Below are positions 2,296-25,396 of a stretch of DNA of 26,124 nt, one piece after another. How positions within the stretch are numbered: position 1 is the stretch's first letter; every line of letters begins with the position of its first letter. The stretch covers positions 1 through 26,124 of IMG/VR virus record IMGVR_UViG_3300036772_000088. One strand, written 5' to 3'. The notes under the pieces were generated by a model. It saw only the letters and a program-made list of their open reading frames with translations. It did no database searches and was not told the origin of the DNA. This DNA is from a virus. The position numbers were made by a program, and so were the translations under genes.

Positions 2296-3675
2296 ATGGA
2301 AGTAATAATTGATGGCAAACATTATGCACCTGCCTGCCGTTCCGTGGCCCGCATCGGAATAGCGATTACGACTCACAACCGCGCTGACGTTCTGGCCCGT
2401 GCCATTGCTCAACACCAACAATATTTACCGCCCGGCGCGCTGGTGGTTGTTATCGAGGATGGATCATCGCCTGCGGCTGTAGTGCCTGACGGTGTGCAAC
2501 TCATTCGACATGATAAATCGCTGGGCATTGTTGCTTCTAAAAACAGGAGCATTGAGGCGCTGGTAGATGCCGGGTGCGAACACCTATTTCTATGGGATGA
2601 TGATGCCTGGCCGATAGCGCCGGGCTGGCACCTGCCTTACGTTGAATCCCCGGAGCCGCACCTTGCCTACACGGGCCAGCGTGGCGTGATGCTTTACTAC
2701 CACCGCAGCGCTATCGAGAAGGTAGGCGGATTCGATCCGGTCTACGGTCGCGGTATGTACGAACATCCCGATCTCGCGCTGCGCATCCATAACGCTGGGC
2801 TGACGTCCTGGGCGTTTGCTGATGTGGCCGGTTCGGCTGCGCTGATTCACTCAATGGACGAACATGAAGAGGTTACCCGCTCAGTGCCGCGCCCGGATCG
2901 TGAGGCGCTGGTTAAACGCAATGTTGGTATCTTCAACGCTCGACGCGACAGCGGCTATACCGGCTTTGCTTCATACAGCCGCAATCCGAACGTCGTTCTG
3001 ACTACGTTGCTGACCAACCAGCCGGACCCGCAGCGCAATGGCAGAATGAGCGCTGACCCGCAGCTGTTGCAGGCGTGGGCCGATTCCATTTCTGGCGCGC
3101 TGCCGCTGGTCCTCGCTGACGAGCTGAAAGAGTCGCCGACTGGCTCAGGGCTGTTTGAGGTCCCCGCGCTGAGCATGAGCCCGTACTTTGCGCGCTGGCT
3201 GCACATCTACCAGCACCTGCGCGCACATCCAGAATACCGGCTCGTCTGGTGTACCGACGGTACAGACGTTGAGATGCTGCGCGAACCATGGGCAGAGATG
3301 GAGCCAGGAAAGGTTTACGTTGGCTCTGAGCACAAGACTTATGCCGATGAATGGATGAAAGCCAATCACCACGGCAAAGCCTACAGCGAGTTCTTCGACC
3401 AGTACCGTGATGAGCCGCTGCTGAATGCCGGGCTACTGGGCGGCAGCCGGGCCGACGTGATGGAGTTCGCCCATCGCATTATTCGCCTGTACTACCGCAT
3501 CGAGAGTCAGCGCTTCTGGAAGATGGAAACAGCCCAGGTCACGCTCGTAGACATGGGCGCGTTTGGTATTTCTGCTAAGTCTTTTGGCGATCGGGTAGTG
3601 ACCGGGCCAAAGGTCCACACGATTTTTAAAACTGACGGTATAGGCAAGGAGCATGCATGGTTTCGCCACAAGTGA
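2296..3675 (+). CDS. Two-domain glycosyltransferase, family 2-like N-terminal half
   Basis: This 459-residue soluble protein has an N-terminal GT-A/GT2-like domain. ARIGIAITTHNRADVLARAI (19-38) forms the nucleotide-binding strand, VVVIEDGSSP (50-59) follows, the metal-binding acidic triad is in WDDDAWP (Asp101-103), and the acceptor-side region is GGFDPVYGRGMYEHPDLALR (144-163). Residues from about 225 to 459 form a second region with another acidic motif (WCTDGTDVEML), which may be a second GT-A-like domain. No membrane segments are seen, so it does not resemble the Gtr O-antigen conversion systems. It overlaps the next glycosyltransferase-like gene by 19 nt and lies between the lysis and packaging genes. 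The acceptor is unknown: a virion protein, DNA or a cell-surface sugar are all possible. The SD sequence before the ATG is weak. Confidence 0.75.
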   Translation: MEVIIDGKHYAPACRSVARIGIAITTHNRADVLARAIAQHQQYLPPGALVVVIEDGSSPAAVVPDGVQLIRHDKSLGIVASKNRSIEALVDAGCEHLFLWDDDAWPIAPGWHLPYVESPEPHLAYTGQRGVMLYYHRSAIEKVGGFDPVYGRGMYEHPDLALRIHNAGLTSWAFADVAGSAALIHSMDEHEEVTRSVPRPDREALVKRNVGIFNARRDSGYTGFASYSRNPNVVLTTLLTNQPDPQRNGRMSADPQLLQAWADSISGALPLVLADELKESPTGSGLFEVPALSMSPYFARWLHIYQHLRAHPEYRLVWCTDGTDVEMLREPWAEMEPGKVYVGSEHKTYADEWMKANHHGKAYSEFFDQYRDEPLLNAGLLGGSRADVMEFAHRIIRLYYRIESQRFWKMETAQVTLVDMGAFGISAKSFGDRVVTGPKVHTIFKTDGIGKEHAWFRHK

Positions 3676-4277
3676 AGTTTGTTGTCGTCGGCCATCACAT
3701 TCGGTGCGCCATGGCTACCCGCCTTGCTAATCAGCTGGGCGCACATGTGCTGACTGATGAAGAGAACCACGGCGCCAACTGGAATCATCGCCGCGCGCTT
3801 GAGTGGGCATCCGGGCAGGATTGCCGGGTTGTTGTGCTGGAAGATGATGCCCAGCCGGTTGCCGGCTTTACCGCACTGGTGGCTGATTGGCTGACCCGCT
3901 TTCCGGATAGCCTTTGCTCTTTCTATCTGGGCACTGGCCGCCCGCCTCAGTATCAAATGCAGATAGCCGAGCGGCTTATCATTGCCGATAAGAATCGTTC
4001 GGACTACATCACGTTACCGCGGCTGATACATGGCGTGTGCTACAGCGTACCGCCACAGCATATCGAGCGCGTCCTCGAACGATGGGACAGCAGCAAGGCA
4101 GCCGACTATGCGGTGGGTGATGCCCACGGCGGCCCGGTCCTTTATCCGTGTTATTCACTCGTTGACCATGCTGATGGGGAGCCTGTAGAGAGGCCGATGG
4201 ATGGCATGCCGCGGACTGAACGCAGGAGAGCATGGCGACTCGCTGGAAGGCCGGAGATAAACCAATGCCAGCATTGA
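3657..4277 (+). CDS. Small glycosyltransferase-like protein (GT-A fold candidate)
   Basis: This 206-residue soluble protein overlaps the end of the larger glycosyltransferase by 19 nt, so the two are probably co-translated. It starts with a strand-rich segment (KFVVVGHHIRCAMATRLANQL), then has VVVLEDDAQPVAG, a D-D motif of the kind used for metal and sugar-nucleotide binding in GT-A enzymes (compare GT25). The order helix-strand, then EDDA, then a Tyr/Leu-rich region (SFYLGTGRPP) and a late acidic HxGP segment matches small GT25-like proteins. I infer a partner to the upstream enzyme, adding a second sugar or acting on the same target. The family call is from motif and context only. ATG 3657 is preceded by AGGAGCATGC, a usable ribosome binding site. 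Confidence 0.6.
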   Translation: MVSPQVKFVVVGHHIRCAMATRLANQLGAHVLTDEENHGANWNHRRALEWASGQDCRVVVLEDDAQPVAGFTALVADWLTRFPDSLCSFYLGTGRPPQYQMQIAERLIIADKNRSDYITLPRLIHGVCYSVPPQHIERVLERWDSSKAADYAVGDAHGGPVLYPCYSLVDHADGEPVERPMDGMPRTERRRAWRLAGRPEINQCQH

Positions 4278-12147: not shown

Positions 12148-12606
12148 ATGCCAGATGCAAATAAAAGCTCCCCCGAATATGCGATGCTCCCGGCGGGAAC
12201 TGTTGTTATGTGGGGGCCTGCGGGCAGCGACGTAGCCACAATGAAGCCGCTGATTAACTGTAAAGCACTGGGGGCAACGGGGCAGACGGGCAGTTTTGTC
12301 GACTGCACAACGCTCATCGATACCAGTAAGCAGTTTATTTCTGACCTGCCGGAAGGCCCGGAAAAGTCGCTGGGCTTTATCGATGATCCGGCCAATCAGG
12401 ATTTTGCTGACCTTCTGAACTCTGCCGAAAGTCGTGAAACCATTCAGTTTTATGTAGAGCTGCCAAACGGGCGAACGGCGAATATGATCCTGGCACTTTC
12501 CGGCTGGCAGATGAACGAAATCACCGCGCCGGCCAGTGAAGTTATCCAGATAACCGTTCAGGGTAAGCAAAACAACATCGTATGGGGAACCGCAGCTACA
12601 AGCTGA
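12148..12606 (+). CDS. Major tail (tube) protein
   Basis: This 152-residue protein lies just before a strong terminator and the tail chaperone frames, the place of the tail tube gene. It has PAGTVVMWGPAGSD near the start, then DCTTLIDTSKQFISDLPEGPEKSLGF, a helical DFADLLNSAESRETIQFYVEL segment and beta strands ending in VIQITVQGKQN. This order matches tube proteins of lambda-like and HK97-like tails. The tube subunits stack as hexamers around the tape measure. GAGG about 9 nt upstream is the ribosome binding site. The following terminator would limit downstream expression relative to this abundant product. Confidence 0.82.
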   Translation: MPDANKSSPEYAMLPAGTVVMWGPAGSDVATMKPLINCKALGATGQTGSFVDCTTLIDTSKQFISDLPEGPEKSLGFIDDPANQDFADLLNSAESRETIQFYVELPNGRTANMILALSGWQMNEITAPASEVIQITVQGKQNNIVWGTAATS

Positions 12607-12626
12607 TCCAACTGTGCTTTTCACAG

Positions 12627-12648
12627 GCCGCCGCGTGGCGGCTTTTTT
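12627..12648 (+). terminator. Rho-independent terminator after the tail tube gene
   Basis: GCCGCC (12627-12632), loop GCGT, GGCGGC (12637-12642), then six T (12643-12648). This is a textbook intrinsic terminator within the late operon. As late transcripts in lambdoid phages are antiterminated by Q, it may be read through in part and so set a high ratio of tube protein to chaperone. Confidence 0.85.
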
Positions 12649-12665
12649 ATTGAATGGAGAATTAA

Positions 12666-13013
12666 ATGAAAGACCTGAAATCCCTGCTGCTGGCCCCTGA
12701 GCATGACGCTTACCCTGTCACCATACTGGGTGCCGAGGTATTTATTCGTCGCCTGACATCATTTGAACTGGAACAGTACGACGAAAAGCAGGAGCAGCTG
12801 CGCGAAGAAAAAAATCTGAGCGGTGTCGGGCTGTCGACCGCTTCGCTAATTCTCAGCGCGCTAGTTGATGATAAAGGTGTCCCTGTCCCGGCAACCGACC
12901 TGCCTGCTCCCGATGAGCTGCTGAAGGCCCGCTCTAACGCTTCGATCATTGAAGCCCTGCGGACTATTCAGCGCCACAGCTGGGGCACGCTGGAGGAAGC
13001 GAAAAAAAACTAA
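12666..13013 (+). CDS. Tail assembly chaperone, G-type frame
   Basis: This 115-residue protein sits between the tail tube and tape measure genes, the place of lambda G. It starts MKDLKSLLLAPEHDAYPVTILGAEVFIRRLTSFELEQYDE and ends EEAKKN. Tail chaperones bind the tape measure protein and bring in tube subunits; G makes most of the product and a small share is extended by frameshifting. The last codons AAA AAA AAC lie on a slippery heptamer (13004-13010), and TAA (13011-13013) overlaps the ATG of the next frame. ATG 12666 has GGAG 6-9 nt upstream. The fusion with the next frame would have 193 residues. Confidence 0.85.
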   Translation: MKDLKSLLLAPEHDAYPVTILGAEVFIRRLTSFELEQYDEKQEQLREEKNLSGVGLSTASLILSALVDDKGVPVPATDLPAPDELLKARSNASIIEALRTIQRHSWGTLEEAKKN

Positions 13014-13068
13014 TGGACTCCCCCTGGCTGATGGACATTTTCAGCCTTGCCGATCGTCTGGGGGAGTC
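12992..13068 (+). promoter_or_regulatory. Programmed -1 ribosomal frameshift element
   Basis: Three elements line up. GGAGGA (12992-12997) is an SD-like sequence 6 nt before the slippery site. A AAA AAC (13004-13010) is a canonical -1 heptamer in the correct phase (zero-frame codons AAA at 13005 and AAC at 13008). Starting 5 nt later, GACTCCCCC (13016-13024) pairs perfectly with GGGGGAGTC (13060-13068). A second stem GGCTGA (13026-13031) with TCAGCC (13041-13046) lies inside its 35-nt loop. Shifting to -1 reads CTA then ATG and enters the downstream frame. The design resembles E. coli dnaX (SD, A AAA AAG, hairpin) more than the lambda G GGA AAG site. Confidence 0.88.
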
Positions 13069-13246
13069 TGACCCGCGCAAAATTGCCAGCCTGCCGGCTA
13101 ACATTCTTCTTCACTGGAAAGCATTTTACTCCCTGACTGGCAACACGGTTGAAAGAGGTGCGCCAGTTGCGCCGGTAACTGCTCCACCCGCCAGTAATGA
13201 CCCGTCCAGGCAGTGCGCTGACGTTATGAGGATCTTAGGACAATGA
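13013..13246 (+). CDS. Tail assembly chaperone extension, T-type frame, made by -1 frameshift
   Basis: This 77-residue frame lies -1 relative to the G-type frame and has no good ribosome binding site of its own, since the nearest GGAGG is 16 nt before the ATG. It probably is expressed as the C-terminal part of a G-T fusion, joined through Leu (CTA 13010-13012). The lambda T domain contacts the tail tube protein; here the sequence is MDSPWLMDIFSLADRLGESDPRKIASLPANILLHWKAF, then a Pro/Ala-rich tail. Independent restart at the TAATG overlap is an alternative. The stop overlaps the tape measure ATG (13243-13246). Confidence 0.8.
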   Translation: MDSPWLMDIFSLADRLGESDPRKIASLPANILLHWKAFYSLTGNTVERGAPVAPVTAPPASNDPSRQCADVMRILGQ

Positions 13247-16215
13247 GTGATGTTGCAAGCCTGTCGGTCGCCCTGCACCTTAACTCTGCGGCGTTCAAGT
13301 CGCAGATCACCGACGCATATCAGAAAGCGGGGCAGGCCAGCACAAAATTCAATAGCCAGGCGACCACTCAGGCTAACGAGCTGGCTAATGCCATTTCGAA
13401 AACGGTTACCGCCGCAAAAGGCATTGGATTCCCTGCTGCAAATGCCGATCAGTTTTCTGGGGCTACTCGCGGTGCCGGGCAGCTCAACTTTGTGCTTCAT
13501 GAAGTGGCCGCAGGCAGTAATGTCGCCAGCAGCAGCATAATTAACGCGCTGATCCCCGCTGTACACTCACTGAAATCACAGCTTGATGGCAGCGCGGGTG
13601 GCTGGAAAACGCAACAGGAGGCCGCCCGATCCGCCGCAGCTGAGTTGGCTAAGGCGGCTGAAAACCAGATAGCCATGGCGCAGGCGGAAAAGCAGGCCGC
13701 CATTAACAAAGTCACGATTGCTGAAAAAACGGTTGCCGCCGCTAAAGCCCAGCGGGACCAGGCGATCGCGCTGGATGAGTATTACGCGAAACAGGAAGCG
13801 GTGAATAAACAGTTTGGCCTGAATGTCAGCTATCAGGATGAACATCTCAAGAATGAGCGCGCCATTCTGGAAGCTAACAGGCTTGAAGCCGGGGCGCTGG
13901 ACAAGCTCAAAACAGCTAAAGCAGCCGTGATTGCTGCGGAGCTGGCTGAGACTGGCGGGAAGGCGGCACTCACCGCGTCAACAGAAGCGGCCGCTTTAGC
14001 TAACACGCAGCTCTCCGTCAGTCAGCGTATAGCGGCAACCAGCAGCCGGGCACTCAGCTCTGCGATGAGCTTGCTGGGCGGGCCCGTTGGCATTGGTCTG
14101 ACCGCCGTGGCCGCCGCCGGTGCGTTTGTCTACAGCGAGTTTAAAAAAGCGGAAGAGCAGACAAAAAAGCTTAACGCCGCTGTCCTCGATTTGAGCACGT
14201 CGGCGCTGGTGTCGGCTGACGATCTAAAGCGGTTGAATGGTGAGCTTGGTAATACCGAAAATTCCGTAGATGCGGTAACCACGACGGCTAAAGCCGGATT
14301 TGGTGGCAAGCTATTGACGGATGTTGCCACGCTGGCAAACGCATACGCGCAGGCGGGCGGCAGTGCCCAGGAGTTGGTAAACAATCTTTCCGGGTTGCGT
14401 GGCGATCCGGTTGCCGCTATGTCAAAACTGACCGCTTCCGGCGTGGTGTTGAAAGACTCATTCATTCAGCAGGTGATGGCGCTTAATGAGCAGGGCCGCG
14501 CCGCTCAGGCCAGCCAGATGATTATTGAGGCGGCTATGGCAGCCGAAAAAGCCCGGCTTTCTGAGCTGGGTATAGAGGTCGATAAAACATCTGAGACAGT
14601 CAGAAATCTGGGGCAAACATGGGGCACAGCAGGCGAGCAGGCAGTGATCGCTCTTGGGGGCGCGATTGATAAGACCCAGGAGACGAATAAAAAGCTCGGA
14701 CTGATGGCTCGCCAGTTATCGCGTGATATTACAGCTGCAAGCGCTGCGGAACAGAATGAGCGGATAAAAAATTCAGTTGGCCTGAAAAGCTACATGGATG
14801 CAGGTACCACTGCTGCCGAAAAGCGAGCGGCGGCGATAAAAAAACTTAACAGCAGTATCTATTCATCGGATTCAGAGGACTATAAACGCATCCTGAAAGG
14901 GATTAACGACGAGTACGATAAAGCTGTTAAGAAGGATGCTCCTAAAAAACAGTCATCAGCAGGTGTAAGCGAGGGCCAGCGGGCGCTGATGCAGGCCCAG
15001 CAGCAAAACGCAGTCCTGCGCGAACAGGCACAGACGACGGATAAAATGACCGGGTCTGCGCGGCAACTGGCAGCCTTCAACGAGCAAATATCCAGTCTTA
15101 AGGGCCAACACCTGACCGCGGACCAGAAAAGCCTGGTCAATATGCAGGACCAGATCCGGGCGCAGCTTCAGGCGAACGCCGCCCTGGAGAAAGAGGCTCA
15201 GCTTCGCGTCACGGTCCAGAAGTATCAGCAGGAGAGCATTAAGTGGGCTGAAGAGGCCGATGCGATGCAGCGAGAGGCCGCGCTGAATCTGGGTAAATAC
15301 AGTCTTTCTGACAGAGAGTCTGCGGATGCGGACGCACGAAACGCCATTATCAACCGGTTCAATCAGCGTCGGATTGCGCTCGAAAAGGATTTTACCGATC
15401 ACTCGTCGGCAGAATATCAGGCCCGGCTTACCGACCTGGAAAATGCCAAACAGCGAGAACTACAGATAACCGAGCAAAACAGCCAGGATAAATTGTCAGC
15501 TGAGCAGGATTTCACCGCGGGTTTTCGTCGGGGAACGCTGAACTGGGTGGACGCGGCGCGGGATGCAAACAACCAGATGGAAAATTTTTCTGCCGGGTTG
15601 TTCGATGGCATGACCGATTCCCTCTCGACGTTCGCCATTACTGGCAAACTGAGTTTCAGAAGCTTCACCACGTCCATTCTTGCTGACCTGGCAAAAATTG
15701 CCACCCGGATAGCCTTATCCAGCGCGCTGCAAAGCATTTTTGGGGCGGTCACGTCTTCATTTTCAGGCGGTGGCGACGGCACCACACCTTCTGGCGCGTA
15801 TGACAATGCGGCGGCAGGCATAAAATTTAATGCAAAAGGTGACGTCTATAACTCGCCATCGCTGAGTTCATACAGCAATGCGGTTTATGACTCACCTCAG
15901 ACCTTTGCTTTTGCTAAGGGGGCCGGTGTCTTTGCGGAGGCCGGGCCAGAGGCCATTATGCCGCTGACACGATCAGCAGATGGTTCACTTGGTGTTCGGG
16001 CTGTGGGCGGCGGTGCCGGAGCCTCAACAGGGGCAGCGCCGCAGGTTTACATCACTATTACCAGCGAAGGTAACACGTCGACCCAAAGCAACGGCGGATG
16101 GGAGCAGTTTGGTAAGGAGATTGGCAGCTTTGTCGATCAACGATACCGGCAGCTTATCAAGTCGGATATTCGCCCGGGCGGCTCAATCTGGAATGCAACA
16201 AAAGGCGGGCGCTAA
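13243..16215 (+). CDS. Tape measure protein, lambda type
   Basis: This 990-residue protein is the longest in the operon after J and follows the chaperone frames. It is Ala/Gln/Lys-rich with long helical, coiled-coil stretches (about 110-250 and 560-690). Residues about 275-300 (ALSSAMSLLGGPVGIGLTAVAAAGAFVYSEF) are a hydrophobic segment that may help DNA cross the inner membrane. Residues about 757-835 (LNWVDAARDANNQ to ALQSIFG) match the lambda tape-measure C-terminal domain. The C-terminus has a Gly/Ser-rich stretch, then FAEAGPEAIMPLTRSADG, common in these proteins. It sets tail length and enters the host; at about 1.5 Angstrom per residue the tail would be near 150 nm (inference). Confidence 0.93.
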   Translation: MSDVASLSVALHLNSAAFKSQITDAYQKAGQASTKFNSQATTQANELANAISKTVTAAKGIGFPAANADQFSGATRGAGQLNFVLHEVAAGSNVASSSIINALIPAVHSLKSQLDGSAGGWKTQQEAARSAAAELAKAAENQIAMAQAEKQAAINKVTIAEKTVAAAKAQRDQAIALDEYYAKQEAVNKQFGLNVSYQDEHLKNERAILEANRLEAGALDKLKTAKAAVIAAELAETGGKAALTASTEAAALANTQLSVSQRIAATSSRALSSAMSLLGGPVGIGLTAVAAAGAFVYSEFKKAEEQTKKLNAAVLDLSTSALVSADDLKRLNGELGNTENSVDAVTTTAKAGFGGKLLTDVATLANAYAQAGGSAQELVNNLSGLRGDPVAAMSKLTASGVVLKDSFIQQVMALNEQGRAAQASQMIIEAAMAAEKARLSELGIEVDKTSETVRNLGQTWGTAGEQAVIALGGAIDKTQETNKKLGLMARQLSRDITAASAAEQNERIKNSVGLKSYMDAGTTAAEKRAAAIKKLNSSIYSSDSEDYKRILKGINDEYDKAVKKDAPKKQSSAGVSEGQRALMQAQQQNAVLREQAQTTDKMTGSARQLAAFNEQISSLKGQHLTADQKSLVNMQDQIRAQLQANAALEKEAQLRVTVQKYQQESIKWAEEADAMQREAALNLGKYSLSDRESADADARNAIINRFNQRRIALEKDFTDHSSAEYQARLTDLENAKQRELQITEQNSQDKLSAEQDFTAGFRRGTLNWVDAARDANNQMENFSAGLFDGMTDSLSTFAITGKLSFRSFTTSILADLAKIATRIALSSALQSIFGAVTSSFSGGGDGTTPSGAYDNAAAGIKFNAKGDVYNSPSLSSYSNAVYDSPQTFAFAKGAGVFAEAGPEAIMPLTRSADGSLGVRAVGGGAGASTGAAPQVYITITSEGNTSTQSNGGWEQFGKEIGSFVDQRYRQLIKSDIRPGGSIWNATKGGR

Positions 16216-23430: not shown

Positions 23431-23667
23431 ATGATGAAAAAGCTATTTTCGATTATTATTGTTGCCCTTGCGTTATCTGGTTGCGCCGATGTGATGAAGC
23501 GTCAGCAGCCGGTCTGCACGGCGTCAGCGGTCATTGGCGGACAGAGCGCACTGGTACAAATTTACGACGTTAAAAAAATTAACGGGCAAACGAAATATAA
23601 GGCGGGTTATCCGTTTAACTGGAAATGGGTGAGTAAGAATAACTTCACCGATTCCACCTGCAATTAG
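23431..23667 (+). CDS. cor: Cor-like superinfection exclusion lipoprotein
   Basis: This 78-residue lipoprotein has a Lys-rich start and hydrophobic core ending in L-A-L-S-G-C (Cys18), with Ala at +2. The rest includes QPVCTASAVIGGQSALVQI, YDVKKINGQTKYKAGYPFNWKWV and a final STCN. This agrees with the Cor family of phi80, N15 and HK022, which in the outer membrane blocks the FhuA receptor and excludes phages that use it (T1, T5, phi80). The two Cys after the lipobox (about 29 and 77) may form a disulfide. A second ATG directly follows at 23434. It has its own promoter candidate and terminator, so it is an independent unit between J-linked genes and the tail fibre. Confidence 0.88.
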   Translation: MMKKLFSIIIVALALSGCADVMKRQQPVCTASAVIGGQSALVQIYDVKKINGQTKYKAGYPFNWKWVSKNNFTDSTCN

Positions 23668-25095: not shown

Positions 25096-25144
25096 TTGAT
25101 CTGTTTAATTAGCTCAATTACTGTATGCGCATACAGTAATTGAG
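25096..25144 (+). promoter_or_regulatory. LexA-controlled promoter with 32-bp perfect palindrome
   Basis: Positions 25113-25144 are a perfect inverted repeat (each arm CTCAATTACTGTATGC or its complement). Its centre, TACTGTATGCGCATACAGTA (25119-25138), fits the LexA box CTG-N10-CAG and differs at one base from the E. coli recA box as I recall it (TACTGTATGAGCATACAGTA). TTGATC (25096-25101) could be the -35, with a -10 region at 25119-25124 inside the box after 17 bp. GAGGAGGGG at 25142-25150 is the ribosome binding site for the next gene. LexA should repress the following two genes until DNA damage. Confidence 0.87.
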
Positions 25145-25156
25145 GAGGGGAAAGAG

Positions 25157-25396
25157 ATGCCACGTTATACAGAAATAGGAACAGCGTTTAACCGCGCCGT
25201 CAGGGTTGAGCAGAGCGGGCGCAAGACAGTGACAACTGCTGATTTTGTAGCTGAGCTTGAAAAACTGAACTGGCACTGGGATCTCAAAGAGGCGAACAGT
25301 TGGATTGAAAACCACGTTACAACGTTCAGAGACATCAGCGATCAGGAAGGTGAGGCCCGGATTTTCATGGTCTATAACCCGAACGGGAGGCACTGA
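25157..25396 (+). CDS. Small SOS-controlled protein of unknown function
   Basis: This 79-residue soluble protein is the first gene after the LexA box (12 nt after the palindrome, with a strong GAGGAGGGG ribosome binding site). It reads MPRYTEIGTAFNRAVRVEQSG, then TTADFVAELEKLNWHWDLKEANSWIENHV and a strand-rich end EARIFMVYNPNGRH. I see no zinc, catalytic or DNA-binding motif; Trp, Asn and Lys/Glu-rich helices suggest a small binding protein. It is not DinI-like in sequence as I recall that family. The stop lies 1 nt before the ATG of the UmuD'-like gene, so the two are co-expressed and may act together in the SOS response or prophage induction. Confidence 0.75.
   Translation: MPRYTEIGTAFNRAVRVEQSGRKTVTTADFVAELEKLNWHWDLKEANSWIENHVTTFRDISDQEGEARIFMVYNPNGRH

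Follow-up and report, generated by a model that had tools for sequence, protein, structure and literature searches.

The window, by which we mean the whole stretch of DNA that was analysed, is a 26,124-base virus record in which profile searches identified genes of the siphovirus type. These comprise a terminase, portal, protease, major head protein, adaptor and major tail protein, along with a chaperone, a tape measure protein, minor tail proteins and the central fibre J. Elsewhere in the window, positions 2296-4277 carry glycosyltransferase and glucosyltransferase genes, which follow those for holin, endolysin and spanin and probably form a module for surface conversion. A Cor-like superinfection exclusion protein (23431-23667; phrog_1119, E 1.2e-30) has tail genes on one side and a tail fibre gene on the other. 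A perfect 16-nt inverted repeat (CTCAATTACTGTATGC/GCATACAGTAATTGAG, 25113-25144) stands 12 nt upstream of an ATG-initiated open reading frame (25157-25396; phrog_3893, function not known), and its CTGT-N8-ACAG core resembles a LexA box.

A tail assembly chaperone pair sits between the major tail protein and tape measure genes (phrog_158, PF16462/phrog_25875 and phrog_24, respectively). The features of this region are as follows.

12148..12606, + strand: major tail protein gene, given for context (phrog_158, E 2.8e-21)
12666..13013, + strand: 0-frame tail assembly chaperone, 115 aa, counterpart of gpG / HK97 gp13 (PF16462, phrog_25875, phrog_344)
12992..12997, + strand: SD-like GGAGGA (an SD-like element is present in 42/59 representatives)
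13004..13010, + strand: A AAA AAC, the in-phase slippery heptamer (window and 185 other loci)
13010..13246, + strand: -1 frame extension, counterpart of gpT / HK97 gp14 (phrog_25875 positions 118-194, phrog_14748)
13011..13013, + strand: 0-frame stop TAA directly 3' of the heptamer (a stop there in 53/55 frame-intact representatives)
13016..13024, + strand: 5' arm of the stem, GACTCCCCC (conserved core 13018-13024)
13026..13028, + strand: 5' side of a 3-bp inner extension beyond a 1x1 mismatch (window minimum-energy fold; RNAalifold 18-row subset)
13056..13058, + strand: 3' side of the same extension (same two sources)
13060..13068, + strand: 3' arm of the stem, GGGGGAGTC (conserved core 13060-13066)
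13243..16215, + strand: tape measure protein gene, given for context (phrog_24, E 5.9e-109)

The 115-residue upstream protein matches PF16462 (Phage_TAC_14) with an E value of 6.3e-18, and HK97 gp13 likewise matches phrog_344 (E 1.8e-42). Counted from the Leu codon CTA, the -1 extension consists of 78 residues plus a stop, and the tape measure gene overlaps its end by 4 nt. The single profile phrog_25875 covers both halves of the pair, which suggests that some of its members were deposited as fused proteins. Alignment of the -1 domain to lambda T and HK97 gp14 was weak (hhalign probability about 5%, with 4.9% for lambda T; P 0.008), and a Pfam search with this domain gave no match. A search of solved structures with the upstream profile returned a single match to a Rieske protein (E 0.051), which is not credible, and the same search with the downstream profile returned no match.

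The upstream frame ends with GAG GAA GCG AAA AAA AAC TAA, and the -1 frame goes on as AAA AAA CTA ATG GAC. The heptamer is of the X XXY YYZ type and is in phase with the open reading frame at 12666-13013, the downstream frame is open in -1, and a run of eight A residues (13002-13009) precedes the final C of the heptamer. Translation across the junction gives a predicted fusion of 115 + 78 = 193 residues spanning N115-L-M, as the initial annotation had anticipated. The elements from which that annotation assembled its proposal, namely GGAGGA, the in-phase A AAA AAC and a 9-bp stem 5 nt downstream, were each found where it had placed them. Counted on both strands, the window has 11 copies of the bare heptamer (5.5 expected), and the composite pattern GAGGA-N4-8-AAAAAACTRA occurs once, as against 0/100 shuffles.

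Relatives were gathered by several routes. A blastn search with 701 bases against 50,697 phage records matched 12 records; all of the matches start at 12975 or 12984 and end between 13103 and 13136, and they therefore lie on the junction. Protein searches returned 15 and 13 phage records. Two large scans of viral contigs contributed the best 80 of 306 and the best 80 of 213 relatives; the scans used peptide patterns, which bias the amino acids recovered and leave synonymous bases unbiased. The resulting set held the window and 185 other loci from phage records, IMG/VR and genomes, with the copy of the window itself (L007) left out and some contigs entered twice via different scans. It comprised 112 distinct junctions of 156 nt (L130, which was too short, was left out). 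Removal of L015 and L041, in which A6 breaks the frame, left 110 junctions, and clustering these at 90% identity gave 59 representatives.

AAAAAAC occurs in the window and in each of the 185 other loci. Of the 167 loci resolved by a scan free of any assumption about the slip sequence, 165 had the transition between frames at AAAAAAC; inspection of the other two (L080, L107) and of 19 loci missed by the scan found A6C or longer, with phase not always kept. The heptamer is in phase in 55 of the 59 representatives, the exceptions being L085, L110, L166 and L175, of which L110 is from Arsenophonus and has its heptamer out of phase. In the 55 frame-intact representatives the codons read GAA, AAA or CAA, then AAA, then AAC, and these three codons have a synonymous identity of 1.00 (55/55), compared with 0.21-0.84 for the other codons measured. 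Conservation of the heptamer, on which the initial annotation had made its proposal depend, is complete across the loci, and the site is synonymously invariant in the frame-intact representatives. A stop codon follows immediately in 53/55 frame-intact representatives (35 TAA, 18 TGA and 0 TAG). The lack of TAG was considered as a possible signal and dropped, because TAG is also rare as the end of the -1 frame (1/55).

A run of A residues can also be read by slippage of the transcribing polymerase, which would add an A to some of the mRNA and leave ordinary translation to give the fusion. Slippage on runs of 9 A is described in PMC5009743, the window has A8, and among 111 distinct junctions A8 occurs in 31 and A9 in 10. 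However, 69 of these 111 junctions have just A7, and the window falls short of the homopolymer of about 9 or more taken as the mark of transcriptional realignment. The invariant unit is moreover the heptamer (AAC and not AAT, with A third in the preceding codon) and not a longer run, and the covarying stem 5 nt downstream, described below, suits a ribosomal signal. We regard transcriptional slippage as an improbable explanation of the family's arrangement.

The downstream frame might instead be an independent gene expressed by termination and reinitiation at the ATG at 13013. In the window this ATG overlaps the stop (TAATG) and has GGAGGA upstream, but 15 nt separate it from the end of the SD-like element. 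Across the family, ATG stands at this position in 6/59 representatives, and in 38/59 the -1 frame has no ATG among its first 39 codons. The rarity of ATG is a strong argument against separate initiation as the family's route to the second half, and separate initiation leaves the synonymously fixed heptamer codons unexplained. Free initiation at 13013, which the initial annotation had named as the rival to a frameshift, is accordingly very improbable as the family mechanism.

The core GGAG of the SD-like element ends 8 nt upstream of the heptamer in the window. GAGG or longer occurs within 20 nt upstream in 42/59 representatives and is absent from 17/59. The Glu codon that forms the element is GAG in 40/56 cases, compared with 159/423 Glu codons of the upstream frame, in a test that used a fixed frame, so that out-of-phase rows add noise, and whose statistics ignore relatedness. 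The SD-like element appears to be favoured but is not universal, and a stimulatory role is probable from its distribution.

Downstream of the heptamer, the arms GACTCCCCC and GGGGGAGTC pair perfectly over 9 bp and are 35 nt apart, with 13011-13015 as the spacer to the heptamer. Of 33 inverted repeats in the window, 25 were listed; four of those listed are perfect and have arms that do not overlap, this stem included. The folding energy of an 80-nt segment has a z of -2.5 (3/200 shuffles equally stable), and that of a 171-nt segment a z of -0.55 (60/200 shuffles). Folding energy alone is only mildly unusual, and the case rests on comparison.

The register of the arms sets codon third positions opposite codon third positions. 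Counting from the C of the heptamer, the wobble base of a Ser codon (+11) and that of a Gly codon (+53) form a standard pair in 56/59 representatives, and they do so with six pair types (GC 20, CG 15, AU 12, GU 6, UG 2 and UA 1). When synonymous codons were permuted within amino acids, the mean was 27.9 (sd 3.4, maximum 40), and 0/5000 permutations reached the observed count. The wobble base of a Pro codon (+14) pairs with the facing third base (+50) in 48/59, for which the codon null was 29.8 with a maximum of 43 (0/5000 reaching). The pair +8/+56 forms in 43/59 (codon null 38.7; 24/5000 reaching). The +11/+53 and +14/+50 pairs need 18 and 17 changes of joint state, respectively, on a tree for which the columns of the stem were left out. 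Under a tree-based null the observed pairing at these two positions was reached in 0/20000 pairings, and in 0/400 with the 5' arm held; this null is a simple one-rate model in which each site is simulated alone, and the 20000 pairings were drawn from 400 x 400 histories. The same null reached the observed pairing at +8/+56 in 8935/20000 cases, and that pair therefore lends no support. The compensatory changes that the initial annotation had proposed to look for between 13016-13024 and 13060-13068 were thus found in relatives, at synonymous sites that pair in 56/59 and 48/59 representatives.

An independent count found pairing in 81.2% of 531 stem cells, which fell to 26-48% when the register was slid, and 0/500 shuffles attained the stem's covariation score (0.283). 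The stem ranks first among 13,366 five-pair helices scanned from -60 to +115, and the four top helices of that scan are registers of it. The conserved part consists of seven pairs (+8 to +14) and not nine, as the outer two form in 37/59 and 23/59. The core appears in the minimum-energy structure of 49/59 representatives folded singly, and all five central pairs are kept in 95 of 111 distinct junctions (L015 left out); 11/59 representatives have a longest run of fewer than six pairs in the stem register. Run on the full set of 59 representatives, RNAalifold gave no consensus structure, and on 18 rows that we chose it returned the seven stem pairs with the 3-bp inner extension.

Pairing of this kind could be a by-product of a conserved protein sequence (SPW ... 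xGE). Four of the five central pairs do involve the first two codon positions of S, P, G and E and show hardly any variation, but the informative pairs are third positions, where holding the amino acids fixed predicts 27.9/59 against the 56/59 observed. This explanation is less credible still than separate initiation. The comparison supports the view that selection has maintained a stem-loop about 5 nt past the heptamer.

Other candidate structures fared less well. The second hairpin that had been noticed within the loop (GGCTGA/TCAGCC, 13026-13031/13041-13046) is present as sequence and lies outside the minimum-energy fold of the window. Across relatives it pairs in 48.6% of cells compared with 45.8% in shuffles (2/500 reaching), and its covariation score is 0.186 compared with 0.153 (2/500 reaching). 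One slid register pairs 53.1% of cells and another scores 0.222; since slid registers outdo it, the inner hairpin is at best weakly supported and was not retained as a conserved element. The suggestion of a pseudoknot was not borne out: in a search for helices of 6 or more in the 59 representatives, with the two best per sequence counted, the best pair of loop and downstream positions recurred in only 5/59. A helix joining offsets -18..-14 with +28..+32 (score 0.79) sets the purine-rich SD region against a U-run and was taken as fortuitous. Rfam gave no match up to E 1 within 12600-13300.

Several relatives depart from the common arrangement. One extra A in the slip run merges the chaperone and extension frames in L022/L111, L079, L084/L155, L085, L166 and L175, so that the fusion would be constitutive in those loci; L079 and L166 have the same assembly number, and for these the extra A may be a sequencing error. 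In L015 and L041, A6 in place of A7 breaks the arrangement, and close relatives have A7. The stem register has a run of three pairs in L009, where by eye pairing is possible three bases further in, and five stem pairs are kept in L081 and L085. A clade of five representatives (L162, L164, L167, L176 and L177) reads GCA AAA AAA AAC, with A9, and has at most four consecutive stem pairs. The combination of A9 and a cut stem is a single event on the tree, and L040 has A9 yet keeps its stem. That this clade switched to transcriptional slippage is only a lead. Indels in the A run at L015, L022/L111, L041, L079, L084/L155, L085, L166 and L175 would fit a reading of the split frame as a sequencing error or pseudogene, but with the same split in 55/59 divergent representatives from independent records this reading is scarcely conceivable.

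We consider the site to be a programmed -1 ribosomal frameshift through which the tail assembly chaperone is also made in its long form, with a probability of about 0.9 on the basis of sequence comparison. The three-part signal first proposed between the tail-chaperone frames holds up in that the heptamer, its phase and the adjacent stop are conserved and the stem covaries. We infer the slippage itself, its efficiency, the effects of the stimulators and the roles of the proteins as follows. Most ribosomes would read GCG AAA AAA AAC and terminate at TAA to give the 115-residue chaperone. A minority would pause on the heptamer, with help from the contact that GGAGGA would make with 16S rRNA upstream and from the stem, which begins 5 nt downstream. 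These ribosomes would move one base towards the 5' side (AAA AAC to AAA AAA), and reading on through CTA ATG GAC would give the 193-residue fusion. A further pause, with tRNA-Asn in the P site, could come from the stop behind the heptamer; slipping by either route would yield the same peptide, and sequence therefore does not tell the two apart. If lambda gpG/gpGT is a guide, the shared portion would bind the tape measure protein and the extension would recruit the major tail protein.

A AAA AAC is reported to be much less shift-prone than A AAA AAG in E. coli (PMC5009743) and to have low efficiency (PMC4066793). The likely logic is a weak site raised to the needed level by two stimulators. By analogy, that level is probably a few percent. 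The lambda products are made at a ratio of 30:1 (PMC5009743), and frameshifting of 6% and 7% was measured in E. coli for two genes from a cluster of HK97-like tail chaperones, which may or may not belong to the present family (PMC3711429). A fuller proposal, that the weak heptamer and its three additions (SD-like element, covarying stem and a fixed adjacent stop, at which slow termination would keep the ribosome on the slip site) together set the product ratio and that the A9 clade may use transcriptional slippage, is tentative, and we think it rather doubtful as a whole.

The frameshift phenomenon itself is known, and G-T frameshifting is described as widely conserved in PMC5009743. The closest systems are phiKO2 gp13/gp14 and the PY54 chaperone, which belong to the protein family of the window and have A AAA AAC right before the stop, a stem at an equal distance, and GGAGGA (phiKO2) or GAGGA (PY54). 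They differ from the window in having G-C and not C-G at the centre of the stem and no in-frame ATG at the junction. The phiKO2 record is annotated 'putative programmed frameshift from Gp13', whereas the -1 frame is unannotated in the PY54 record. Ten phage records of the chaperone family were checked, of which nine are annotated in this stretch, and a joined gene is given solely in phiKO2. The deposited -1 frame starts about 33 and 27 codons too late in L008 and L009, respectively, and is omitted from L010 and L012. Annotation thus misses or truncates the -1 frame in this chaperone family.

Lambda G/GT and HK97 gp13/gp14 have the gene order and logic of the window. The HK97 chaperone has phrog_344 in common with that of the window, whereas lambda G gave no phrog_344 match; A AAA AAC was not found in the HK97 stretch examined. 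The lambda slip site was read as G GGA AAG, with a stop after five further codons. No GGAG or GAGG was found in the 25 nt upstream of it, in agreement with the contrast to lambda that had been drawn at the outset. With stimulators added, this motif ranks with the most efficient of those studied in PMC4066793.

The layout is nearer to that of E. coli dnaX than to that of lambda, as had been suggested, in that an upstream SD-like element, an A6-type heptamer and a stem-loop a few bases downstream are all present (for the roles of the dnaX elements, see PMC3711429). In dnaX the heptamer is A AAA AAG and the SD core is 10 nt away (MG1655 record), whereas the window has A AAA AAC and 8 nt. The window also has a stop behind the heptamer and gains a longer product, while the dnaX shift, with an efficiency of about 50%, gives a shorter one (PMC5009743). 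Because the slip site A AAA AAG is not shared, we do not file the window as a member of the dnaX type. Some frameshifts of IS1 and IS3-family transposases use A AAA AAC, and hairpin stimulators are common among them (PMC4066793); these are different genes, and no homology is claimed. The same source reports conserved hairpins in 3/5 phage clusters, thought relevant in only one, and SD elements in 3/13 IS and prophage clusters. The combined signal for this chaperone family was not found described among the matches listed, and we make no claim to a first report. What is added here is a heptamer reportedly weak in E. coli, set between two candidate stimulators like those of dnaX and with a stop right behind it. 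A common phage frameshift thereby gains an RNA stimulator that comparison of relatives supports well, and in this system the tuning of a weak slip site by stem pairs, SD spacing and adjacent stop could be tested cleanly.
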